A stretch of 64,000 nt of DNA from Balamuthia mandrillaris (taxonomy: Eukaryota > Discosea > Longamoebia > Balamuthiidae), in assembly GCA_031835245.1 (NCBI GenBank), contig JAVKOQ010000038.1, positions 144,001 through 208,000 on the forward strand, in the 5' to 3' direction. The first letter of the stretch is position 1, and each line of letters starts with the position of its first letter. Under the pieces are notes generated by a model. The model worked only from the letters and a program-made list of their open reading frames with translations, was not told the DNA's origin and made no database searches. Below, in pieces: positions 45,592-57,097 of this stretch. The position numbers were made by a program, and so were the translations under genes.

Positions 45592-47436
45592 TTACTTTTT
45601 ATTTGATGTTCCAAAAAGTTCGTCAAATATCTGTGAGACTTTTTTAGTATTCTGTATTTCCACCTCCTGTGCCGCTCTTCCTGCTCGCTCTGTATCGTTA
45701 CCATCGTTGGCCAGCAAAGGCCTCATCGCCACATCCATGCTGTTGAGCAGTGTTTCCGCCTCCTTCCCTCTTCCCGTCCTACCCAACAAATCCACCATGC
45801 GGTTGTAATGCTCCGCTGCGGGTTGCACAGCATGCTTCTCTCTCATGGCGGCAAAGCAGGATGCGCCCTCCTCCACTAGTCTTGCCTGGTTGTATGCATT
45901 CAGCAATTTGAAGGTGATGACATCAGGCTGCATGCCTTGTTGCAGCATGTCATCAAACGTAGCTAGTGCTTTTCTCTCTTGACCATTCCCTCCATATGCA
46001 GCAATCATTGAGTTCCATGTCACTATATTCCGTTCCTTCATCTCCTGGAACACAGCACGTGCATCCTCCACCTGCCCGCACTTGCCATACATGCTGATCA
46101 GGGCGTTTGACAGAACCACATCGGGAAGGAAGCGTTGGCGGAGGAGCTGAGCGTGCACCTGTTTGCCCACCTCCAAGTCCTTCTCTGTTGCACAGGCCTT
46201 CAGCACACTGCTGAAGGTGAAAGCATCTGGTGCCACACTTGCCTGCTGCATCTGATGAAACAGCGCCAGGGCCTTCTTTCCCTCTCCAAAATTTGTTTCT
46301 GCTGTAATCATTGAGTTCCACGTCTCCACGTTGCGTTCCTTCATCTCTTGGAACACAGCACGTGCATCCTCCACCTGCCCGCACTTGCCATACATGCTGA
46401 TCAGGGCGTTTGACAGAACCACATTGGGAAGGAAGCGTTGGCGGAGGAGCTGAGCGTGCACCTGTTTGCCCGTCTCCAAGTCCTTCTCCGTTGCACAGGC
46501 CTTCAGCACAACACTGAAGGTGATGGTGTTAGGTGCCACGCCTGCCTGCTGCATCTGATGAAACAGCGCCAGGGCCTTCTTTCCCTCTCCAAAATTTGTT
46601 TCTGCTGTAATTATTGAGTTCCACGTCGTAAAATCCCGTTCCTTCATCTCTTGGAACACAGCACGTGCATCCTCCACCTGCCCGCACTTGCCATACATGC
46701 TGATCAGGGCGTTTGACAGAACCACATTGGGAAGGAAGCGTTGGCGGAGGAGCTGAGCGTGCACCTGTTTGCCCACCTCCAAGTCCTTCTCTGTTGCACA
46801 GGCCTTCAGCACACTGCTGAAGGTGAAAGCATCTGGTGCCACACTTGCCTGCTGCATCTGATGAAACAGCGCCAGGGCCTTCGACCCATGGCCACGCTGT
46901 GTGTAGGTTTGGATTAAGGCATTCCAAACCCCTACCTCCTGCTTCTCCACCGCCTGCTTTGGCATCTCATCAAACACTGCACTATCTAGATCCACTCTCC
47001 CACACCTCCCATAGGTGCTAATGAGGGTGGCAGCCGAGGAGCCAAGAGCGGGCTTGGTAGAAAACTTTGGGCGAGAAGGAGAGAGGCTGAGGAGGTGGGC
47101 GTGCAGCCGCTGGCAGACCAACAAGGCTTGCTCTTCTCTGCACCGCTTGAGCAGGTCCGTGTAGGCCTTATCCTTTGCTCGTACGGCTGCCCTTTCCATC
47201 TCCTCCAGCACAGCGCTCACTGCCGTCTCCTCAAGGCGGCCGGCTGCTTTTGCCAGCTTTTGTAGCTGCTGGGTGAAGTTCCGGCTCGCCCGTGCCTCCG
47301 CCTGGCTTTCTCCTTCTCCCGTGCTTGCCGTCCCACGGTTCCGCGTCTTGGCTTTGCTTCTTCTCTTCTGCTTTCGTTGGTCAGGTGTTTGGGTGTCTGT
47401 GGACAGGTGTGAGCAACAACGACAGAAAAAAGACAA

Positions 47437-47472
<36 letters not shown>

Positions 47473-47628
47473 AAAAGAGAGCGTACCGTGTAAGCGGAAG
47501 GAGGTGTGATATTTACAGGAAGGAGGCGCAAGGGAGAGATGGTGACCACCAGGTACTAGCGCCAACCGCAGCCACCGTTGCATTGGGAAGGGCTTTGGAT
47601 GGTCCATCGCTCTGGGCAGCCGCAACAT
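45592..47628 (-). CDS. PLS-class pentatricopeptide-repeat protein
   Basis: Probably a mitochondrial RNA-binding protein. Exon 1 (47628 to about 47485) encodes a basic N-terminus (MLRLPRAMDHPKPFPMQRWL) suited to import. The rest is one exon. It carries a coiled region (LQKLAKAAGRLEETAVSAVL), then repeats in the plant PLS order: P (TWNSIITAETNFGEGKKALA), L (TFSSVLKACATEKDLEVGKQ) and S (VVLSNALISMYGKCGQVEDA). Three nearly identical 101-residue modules lie at about 46916-46614, 46613-46311 and 46310-46008. It ends with an E1-like segment, AEHYNRMVDLLGRTGRGKEA, and then a short unrelated tail. PLS-E proteins act in organellar C-to-U editing in plants, usually with a DYW deaminase domain. No DYW, HxE or CxxC deaminase motif is present here. 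Confidence 0.92.
46008..46916 (-). repeat. Three near-identical 303-bp PPR modules
   Basis: Within the PPR gene, a 303-bp unit occurs three times in tandem with few base differences, including silent sites; segments such as the one encoding LSNALISMYGKCGQVEDARA are almost unchanged. The period is visible from recurring GAGTTCCACG at about 46009, 46312 and 46615. Confidence 0.93.
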
Positions 47629-54398: not shown

Positions 54399-54407
54399 GA
54401 TAAATAG
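54399..54407 (+). promoter_or_regulatory. TATA-like box of the heptad-repeat gene
   Basis: GATAAATAG lies about 80 nt upstream of the ATG at 54486. It shares ATAAATAG with the cupredoxin TATA box. The leader between is ACAA-rich. Confidence 0.5.
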
Positions 54408-54485: not shown

Positions 54486-55514
54486 ATGAAGTTGCTGTTG
54501 ACAGTGGCCTTGCTGGCGTTGTTCGCCTCTGCTTCCCTGGGACGAGTGAACTATGGCTCCGGAGATGTGACCTACGATGGAGATGACGTGACCTACGACG
54601 GCGGGGACGTCTCTTACGATGGTGGAGATGTGAGCTATGATGGCGGCGATGTCTCCTATGACGGCGATGTGACCTACGATGGCGGTGATGTTTCTTATGA
54701 TGGCGGCGATGTCAGCTACGACGGTGGTGATGTTTCCTACGATGGTAGCGACGTGTCTTACGATGGCGGTGATGTGTCTTACGACGGTGGTGACGTGACC
54801 TACGACGGTGGTGATGTCAGCTACGATGGAGGAGACGTGTCTTATGATGGTGGTGATGTGTCTTACGACGGCGGTGACGTGACTTACGATGGTGGAGATG
54901 TGTCCTACGATGGAGGAGACGTCTCTTACGACGGTGGTGGTCTCTTATGATGGTGGTGATGTGTCCTACGACGGTGGTGACGTCTCTTACGACGGTGGTG
55001 ACGTCTCTTATGATGGTGGTGATGTGTCTTACGACGGCGGTGACGTGACGATGGTGGTGATGTGTCCTACGATGGAGGAGACGTCTCTTACGACGGTGGT
55101 GATGTCTCTTACGATGGTGGTGATGTGACCTATGACGGAGGAGATGTGTCCTACGATGGTGGTGATGTGTCTTACGATGGCGGTGACATCGAGTATGATG
55201 GTGGCTGCTACTATGATGACAGCGACGTGACCTACGACGGCGGTGATGTCTCTTACGATGGAGGAGACGTGACCTACGATGGCGGTGATGTCTCTTACGA
55301 CGGCGGGGACGTGTCCTACGACGGAGGTGATGTCTCTTACGACGGAGGAGACGTGACCTACGACGGCGGTGATGTGTCTTACGATGGCGGAGACGTGAAC
55401 TACGATGGTGGAGACGTGGCGTACGACGGCAGCGCGTACGAGGGTGGCAGCGATGTGGTGAACTACAAGGATGAGACCTCTGCTGCCTCCTCCACCTCCT
55501 CTTTCTTCTTCTGA
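54486..55514 (+). CDS. Secreted tandem-heptad protein (SYDGGDV repeats)
   Basis: No family recognised. The N-terminus KLLLTVALLALFASASLG is a signal peptide. The mature protein is almost wholly a seven-residue repeat, (S/T)YDGGDV, about forty copies including variants (TYDGDDV, SYDGSDV, a Cys-bearing EYDGGCYYDDSDV). It ends in a non-repeat tail, NYKDETSAASSTSSFFF. The composition is Tyr, Asp and Gly, very acidic, with no basic residues in the array. The reading frame stops at 54950 after a 2-bp loss relative to the repeat. A second irregularity of 4 bp lies near 55047, and a frame continuing to 55514 is open from 55062. A GT...AG segment, 54940-55080, would restore the heptad register exactly if spliced. 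Acidic Tyr/Gly repeats suggest calcium-binding, adhesive or wall material (inference). An AATAAA signal lies at 55733. Confidence 0.85.
54549..55440 (+). repeat. 21-bp tandem repeat array
   Basis: A roughly 890-bp array of 21-bp units encodes the heptads. Copies differ mainly at third positions (GAC/GAT, GGC/GGT, TCT/AGC), so the protein is more uniform than the DNA. Confidence 0.95.
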
Positions 55515-55732
55515 ACGAAGAAGACGTTGGATCTGAAAAAAAGTGATGCTCACTATGCTCCTCACCGGAACAAACAGGAAAGAAAATAACAAAAAGAGTT
55601 ACAACGACGTCCTTTTTGTTTAGAACCTCTTTTTTTTTCTTTCTTGTTCCTTTTTTTAAAAGATGAAGTTTTTGTTTTGTTGTTTCTTTTTGTATTGTCT
55701 TTAGAACCTTTTCTTTTAACTTTAAAGTTTTA

Positions 55733-55738
55733 AATAAA
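55733..55738 (+). terminator. AATAAA polyadenylation signal
   Basis: AATAAA lies about 220 nt after the heptad-repeat stop, in a T-rich then A-rich 3' flank, 53 bp before the convergent stop of the MYND gene. Confidence 0.5.
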
Positions 55739-55790
55739 CAACAACAACAAAAAAAAAAAAAGAAGGCCTTCATTCTATAGTGAATGTCAT

Positions 55791-56783
55791 TCACGACGAA
55801 GAAGAAGAGGAAGAGAGTTGAACCATGGTTTGCCACCAGAGCCTGTGACGAGCCTGACAATCCCTGAACATAGCTTCCACAGAGGCAGCCGTGCCATCGA
55901 ACCTCTTCAAAAGCTGCGGGTGAGGGTTGAAGCACTGCGACATCCTGTCCCTGTTGACCCGGATGAACCAGTCGGCGGTGCCGCCCCTCCAATGGAGATC
56001 CACCATCTGCTTGACCAGCGGAGCCAGCTCGCTCGGCTGTGGTCTCTTGGTGTTGATCTGGTTGCGCACCCTCTGGCGCAGGTCGTGGGCGGGGCTCTCC
56101 TCGATGATGTCCGCTGCGTCGTCGTGGCCGTTCATTCTGGCCGCTTGGAAGGAGCGCATCCCAGAGAAGCCTCCCTGAGCCATGGTGTCCGCCCCTGCCT
56201 CGACCAACGTTCGGACCATCTCCACCCTCTTGGCCTCGTCCTCCTTCAGCACGTCGTCCGTGCCAGGGTGGGTGCAGGCATAGTAGAGGGGCTTGTTCTG
56301 GTACCAATCGTCCGCGTTGACGAAGGCCCCGTTCTCCAACAACAGACGAACAGCCTCGGTGTTGCCGCTTGCCACGGCCAAGTGCAACGCCGTCTCTCCG
56401 TGTTTCTCCCTGGCCACGTTCAACAACAGAGGAGCACCGGGCTGCTGCTCGCATTTTTTCTTGAGGGCAAGGACGTCCCCTTTGCGTGCTGCCTCGAAGA
56501 GCTCCTCGTCCCGCGGGGTGGGATAAAGCAAAGCAGGCTCCGAGGGAGAGCAAGGGGCGTACCAGGGGTTGTTGATGCGGTCCCCTGGCCCGGTCCACAT
56601 GGAGCAGAGCAAGGCGCTGTGGTCCTGTTGGTCGGCCGTTTGGCAGGCGTCGCTGCAGTAGTAGCCGGCGGAGCAGGTGGCGCAAGGAGGTCGCCCGCCC
56701 ACCGGTTTGGTGAGGCAGCGCTGGCACAAGAGCTCCACCGGAGAAGAGGAAGAGGCGGGGGCGGAAGCGTTGCTGGATTCCAT
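55791..56783 (-). CDS. MYND zinc finger-ankyrin repeat protein
   Basis: Single-exon gene for 330 residues. The MYND finger at about residues 20-60 reads CQRC, CATCSAGYYC, SDACQ, then H and LC: a complete zinc-ligand set used for protein binding. Ankyrin repeats follow: DEELFEAARKGDVLALKKKC, HGETALHLAVASGNTEAVRL, NKPLYYACTHPGTDDVLK, and VEMVRTLVEAGADTMAQGGF. The C-terminal 90 residues (VKQMVDLHWRGGTADWFIRV, FRDCQARHRLWWQT) are unassigned. The start is the first ATG after the frame opens. It is likely an intracellular protein-interaction adaptor; the partner is unknown. Confidence 0.92.
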   Translation of the reverse strand: MESSNASAPASSSSPVELLCQRCLTKPVGGRPPCATCSAGYYCSDACQTADQQDHSALLCSMWTGPGDRINNPWYAPCSPSEPALLYPTPRDEELFEAARKGDVLALKKKCEQQPGAPLLLNVAREKHGETALHLAVASGNTEAVRLLLENGAFVNADDWYQNKPLYYACTHPGTDDVLKEDEAKRVEMVRTLVEAGADTMAQGGFSGMRSFQAARMNGHDDAADIIEESPAHDLRQRVRNQINTKRPQPSELAPLVKQMVDLHWRGGTADWFIRVNRDRMSQCFNPHPQLLKRFDGTAASVEAMFRDCQARHRLWWQTMVQLSSSSSSS

Positions 56784-57097
56784 GGGTAAGTCTCCGGCGC
56801 AAGAACGAGAGTCTCTCTGTTCTTTTTTGTTTTGGTTCTATAATGTGTTTCAATAAGTGGCCAATTACCAGCCGGACCACAAGCTTGTGGGGCTCACAAG
56901 TCAGATAACGTTGCAGAAAGAGAGCAGCAATACCAGAGCCAAGGATCGCCTAACCCCTCGACAGAGGCTAAATGGAGTATTGCTTGCCCCGAGAAGAATG
57001 ATAGATAATTTTCTTTAAAAAAAACAACAACAGACTGTTGAGATAGCAAGGAACAATGCACCGATGCAATGCTGAGTTTTGTAAGCCATTTTCTGCA

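Follow-up and report, generated by a model that had tools for sequence, protein, structure and literature searches.

Two short units in a heptad-repeat gene of Balamuthia mandrillaris are probably residual assembly deletions rather than signs of an intron

Results

The window analysed here is a stretch of 64,000 nucleotides from the Balamuthia mandrillaris genome (C37:144001-208000, in an assembly of 64.79 Mb in 775 contigs), and coordinates below are those of the window. At 54486..55514 on the plus strand it carries a gene, apparently of a single exon, that encodes a secreted heptad-repeat protein and was recognised by translation, by parsing of the repeat into units and by a family search in the same genome. 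The product starts with a signal-like N-terminus, followed by about 40 DV[ST]YDGG repeats (21 bp each) and a short C-terminal tail ending in SSFFF. A TATA-like element (ATAAATAG, 54400..54407, plus strand), picked out by eye 5′ of the ATG at 54486, is a possible core promoter. The 21-bp tandem array, outlined by TRF, the unit parse and wraparound alignment, occupies 54564..55412 (plus strand), and the open frame runs from the ATG until a stop at 54948-54950. Leading into this stop is a 19-bp unit (54939..54957, plus strand) directly 3′ of the unit at 54918-54938, and a 17-bp unit at 55042..55058 (plus strand) returns the frame. The unit parse thus locates both defects reported in a preliminary description of the locus, which had 2 bp missing at about 54940 and 4 bp near 55047; neither break is present in an intact paralogue, L002. 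The repeat register is kept between the two breaks and the first frame resumes 3′ of the second, which can restore it because the gaps total 6. The array has in-frame variants of its own (one unit of 18 bp at 54648-54665, and 60 bp of degenerate sequence at 55164-55223) and consists otherwise of 21-bp units; the two short units plainly lie outside this pattern. On the minus strand, a 687-aa open frame (54817-56880) spans both frame breaks and an ankyrin/MYND gene, and probably exists because the repeat is free of stops.

The gene product is likely to be a beta-solenoid-like secreted structural protein, as judged from structure prediction and a domain match. Modelled without an alignment, its N-terminal 154 residues formed roughly one strand for each heptad; of five models, the best had a mean pLDDT of 79 and a pTM of 0.71, and the other four had pLDDT values of 38-66. 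A Pfam search placed the beta-helical domain PF21930 above its cut-off (E 1.1e-7), and Foldseek returned no match in the PDB at E ≤ 0.001. Protein searches with an intact paralogue (P0001; 7986 candidates sharing most words) and with its residues 1-60 (559 candidates) likewise gave nothing at E ≤ 0.001, low complexity limiting both, and there was no match among plasmid records. The literature searches found no mention of YDGGDV, nothing on the subject of Balamuthia secreted or cyst-wall repeat proteins, nothing on residual assembly indels and, among the matches listed for haplotypes and repeats, none on Balamuthia. Within B. mandrillaris itself the secreted heptad-repeat proteins form a large family, with no outside relatives at E ≤ 0.001 in searches limited by low complexity.

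Residues 1-83 of the window gene have at least 186 matches in the same genome (150 of 476 first-look candidates were scored), and 25 sites match a degenerate start motif exactly. Contig C438 is the alternative version, reversed, of C37:197.1-235.5 kb; the main aligned blocks are 82-95% identical, and L003 is the positional counterpart (allele) of the window gene on it. About 30 kb from the window gene there is an inverted paralogue, represented by L004 on C37 and L002 on C438; L005 (on C403) shares 99.2% identity with L004. In L002, L004 and L005, all from the same assembly, the frame is open throughout without breaks. In L003 a single 19-bp unit (unit 16) shifts the frame, which is not regained; its heptads and tail are kept in the shifted frame. 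The breaks in the two positional alleles differ both in place (unit 19 in the window gene, unit 16 in L003) and in the bases that are missing. The L002 array is 91.5% identical to that of the window gene, and the length differences between the two are confined to 2 nt, 4 nt and a complete unit of 21 nt. Over residues 1-83 (54486-54734) the window gene matches L002 completely and shares 96% identity with L003, its positional allele; ectopic exchange and an assembly phase mix are alternative explanations.

The preliminary description had drawn attention to 54940..55080 (plus strand), as either an intron born inside the repeat or the product of two deletions or assembly errors, with a lean towards the second. 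Its observations on the ends are accurate: the segment is 141 nt long, starts with GT and ends with AG, and its excision leaves a perfect heptad junction. As the gaps total 6, the length is a multiple of 3. We scored differences within the segment by codon position, reading it in its local register. Against L002, the differences at positions 1, 2 and 3 numbered 1, 0 and 15 (38, 38 and 39 sites); the corresponding values were 1, 0 and 11 against L003 (41, 40 and 41 sites), 0, 0 and 8 against L004 and 0, 0 and 10 against L005 (44, 43 and 44 sites in each case). The lack of codon constraint that would mark a spliceosomal intron is thus seen in none of the comparisons with L002-L005, and the remainder of the gene shows the same third-position bias. 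The substitution pattern indicates that 54940-55080 is coding repeat in its own register and has evolved as protein-coding sequence. Since a very young intron would also show third-position bias, this test rejects an old intron and not splicing as such. Across the whole gene, synonymous and non-synonymous differing codons numbered 65 and 3 of 331 against L002, 61 and 10 of 318 against L003, and 64 and 7 of 331 against L004, with 0 stops in each, and there was neither relaxed constraint nor a further disabling change relative to these three relatives. Decay of this kind would be expected of an old pseudogene; a frameshift of very recent origin could lack it.

The GT..AG ends of the segment do restore the frame, but they are uninformative. 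The 48 GT and 8 AG dinucleotides flanking the two breaks form 384 bracketing pairs, of which 131 leave the frame open to the end and 24 give a perfect heptad junction. Ten of these 24 span 60-300 nt and two of them 141 nt, the second lying 3 nt upstream at 54937-55077. As a control, 500 random break pairs, 108 nt apart, were placed in each of seven intact arrays; for 64-100% of them, one or more GT..AG pairs no longer than 300 nt enclosed both breaks and preserved the register. The GT..AG fit follows from the repetitive structure itself. The C+T content of the segment (47%) is below that of four introns picked by eye in a neighbouring gene (64-77%). Its GTCTCT start ranks 250 of 256 in GT-hexamer enrichment, a ranking dominated by repeats which we did not use as evidence.

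To place the two breaks in the context of the family, 42 arrays were scored by wraparound alignment, with 2 duplicate loci and 8 contig stretches excluded and 4 loci skipped for low score. This sample is not random, as L037-L041 had been chosen for suspected breaks or as counterparts. Gaps in array-end tails (both insertions and deletions) and gap pairs summing to 3 were set aside. Net interior frame-changing gaps remained in 6 of the 42 arrays, namely L001 (the window gene), L003, L019, L037, L038 and L039, and the 14 interior events in these six, by our count, were all deletions of 1-8 nt. L019 and L039 each have several tiny deletions within about 30 nt. The clearest case is L039: over 872 nt it is 99.3% identical to L041, and the only length differences between the two are gaps of 2, 1 and 1 nt, which fall within about 30 nt and all belong to L039. 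A near-identical intact copy was found for L039 only; the nearest aligned intact copies are 91.5% identical for the window gene and 90.3% for L019. L037 and L038, 91% identical and on different contigs, are both broken. Their arrays are of 61.7 and 63.3 units, whereas seven arrays of 62.9-94.4 units (L042-L044 and L048-L051) have no net interior break, so array length alone is not the cause. Outside the arrays, we compared 20 ORFs of at least 600 nt on C37 that match C438. Five were without a frame-changing gap, four long ones had such gaps only in their first ~325 or last ~110 nt, and the other 11 had them elsewhere; because many of those 11 may be non-coding, the comparison gives weak support.

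Discussion

Our results are best explained if the window gene, apparently free of introns, is an ordinary member of the large secreted heptad-repeat family of Balamuthia mandrillaris, and we consider it probable that its short units are residual deletions of a hybrid assembly, the stretch between them being normal coding repeat. Because that stretch has evolved as coding sequence, a sequencing or assembly fault is its most likely explanation, and not an intron. On this account, deletions of 2 and 4 bases surviving in a long-read/short-read hybrid assembly would produce the 19- and 17-bp units, the repeat array making short reads hard to place and so presumably leaving long-read deletions uncorrected; the cell would still have the bases that the assembly lacks. 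This assembly probably corresponds to the Nanopore and Illumina hybrid of what we infer to be strain ITSON01 (PMC10471605). That study describes a hybrid genome of approximately 65 Mb, built with MaSuRCA from Illumina and Oxford Nanopore reads (BioProject PRJNA975899) and annotated with Funannotate, and its table figures are 841 scaffolds and 65.20 Mb, compared with 775 contigs and 64.79 Mb here. The lean of the preliminary description towards deletions or assembly errors is borne out by the coding constraint, by the uninterrupted counterpart in L002 and by the ease with which GT..AG pairs restore the register. Its description of the segment as intron-like finds no support in the same observations.

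The principal competitor is that the deletions are real. The window allele and some other copies would then carry recent frameshifts while intact sisters cover the function, as in birth-and-death evolution of a repeat family. Slippage removes bases from repeat arrays, broken and intact copies stand side by side here, and both positional alleles, the window gene and L003, are broken. The last point also counts against an assembly artefact, as do the broken state of both L037 and L038, the seven long arrays free of a net interior break and the exact repeats of 25-68 nt that adjoin the breaks at the loci examined. Set against real frameshifts are the absence of stops and the few amino-acid changes relative to L002, L003 and L004, the preservation of the L003 heptads and tail in a shifted frame, the resemblance of the clustered tiny deletions in L019 and L039 to read error, and the fact that 14 of 14 interior frame-changing events are deletions. 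The lack of decay in the window gene, together with deletion-only and clustered interior events, would favour uncorrected long-read deletions. We therefore rank real frameshift alleles second, as a rather unlikely though by no means negligible explanation.

The other readings fare much worse. A spliceosomal intron at 54940-55080, born within the tandem repeat and joining two units in register upon excision, would account for the GT..AG ends, the 141-nt length and the exact register once it is removed. Against it stand the third-position bias (which speaks against an old and not a very young intron), the coding nature of the corresponding L002 stretch, the many bracketing pairs that keep the frame open or give a perfect junction, the high proportion of random break pairs that are equally well served in intact arrays, and the low C+T content beside the introns next door. 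We regard this reading as very improbable, and a young intron in the window gene as unlikely. Just as improbable is a combined account, in which very recent real deletions occurred and splicing now removes the 141-nt GT..AG stretch of coding repeat, an intron supplied by the array thereby rescuing a frameshift allele. Programmed ribosomal or transcriptional frameshifting across both breaks could make use of the register held between them and the first frame regained after the second. Such a mechanism would require two distinct shifts separated by about 100 nt, the size and place of the breaks vary among copies, and intact copies have no need of it; this we consider the most improbable of all.

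Three known systems can be compared with this locus. Frameshift errors of long-read and hybrid assemblies in tandem repeats resemble the present case in that small deletions fall in arrays whose frame is otherwise clean, and in that a near-identical copy can lack the deletions, as with L039 and L041; for the deletions in the window gene such an origin is a probable one. Frameshifted alleles of tandem-repeat gene families share the co-occurrence of intact and broken copies but differ in that the window gene is without relaxed constraint. Exitrons and intronised exon segments are likewise GT..AG stretches of coding origin inside an exon, with a length divisible by 3; unlike them, the window gene is unreadable in its unspliced form, and the comparison is one of genomic sequence.

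A possible parallel is found elsewhere in the window. At 45592-47628 on the minus strand, a 678-aa open frame corresponds to the deposited PPR protein P0007 (446 aa). The protein departs from that frame by one plausible intron of 90 nt and by the omission of exactly two repeat units of 303 bp (606 nt). The 606-nt skip has 155 possible junctions, of which 2 are GT..AG and 3 are GC..AG, and probably reflects either an intron wrongly called in a tandem repeat or exitron-like splicing. The deposited model may thus have fallen into the same GT..AG trap. If the intron in the heptad-repeat gene were real, it would be the birth of an intron caught in progress. As matters stand, the locus calls for caution with 21-bp coding arrays in general: a register-restoring GT..AG pair is usually at hand, and a frame break with a fitting GT..AG pair is consequently no evidence for an intron.
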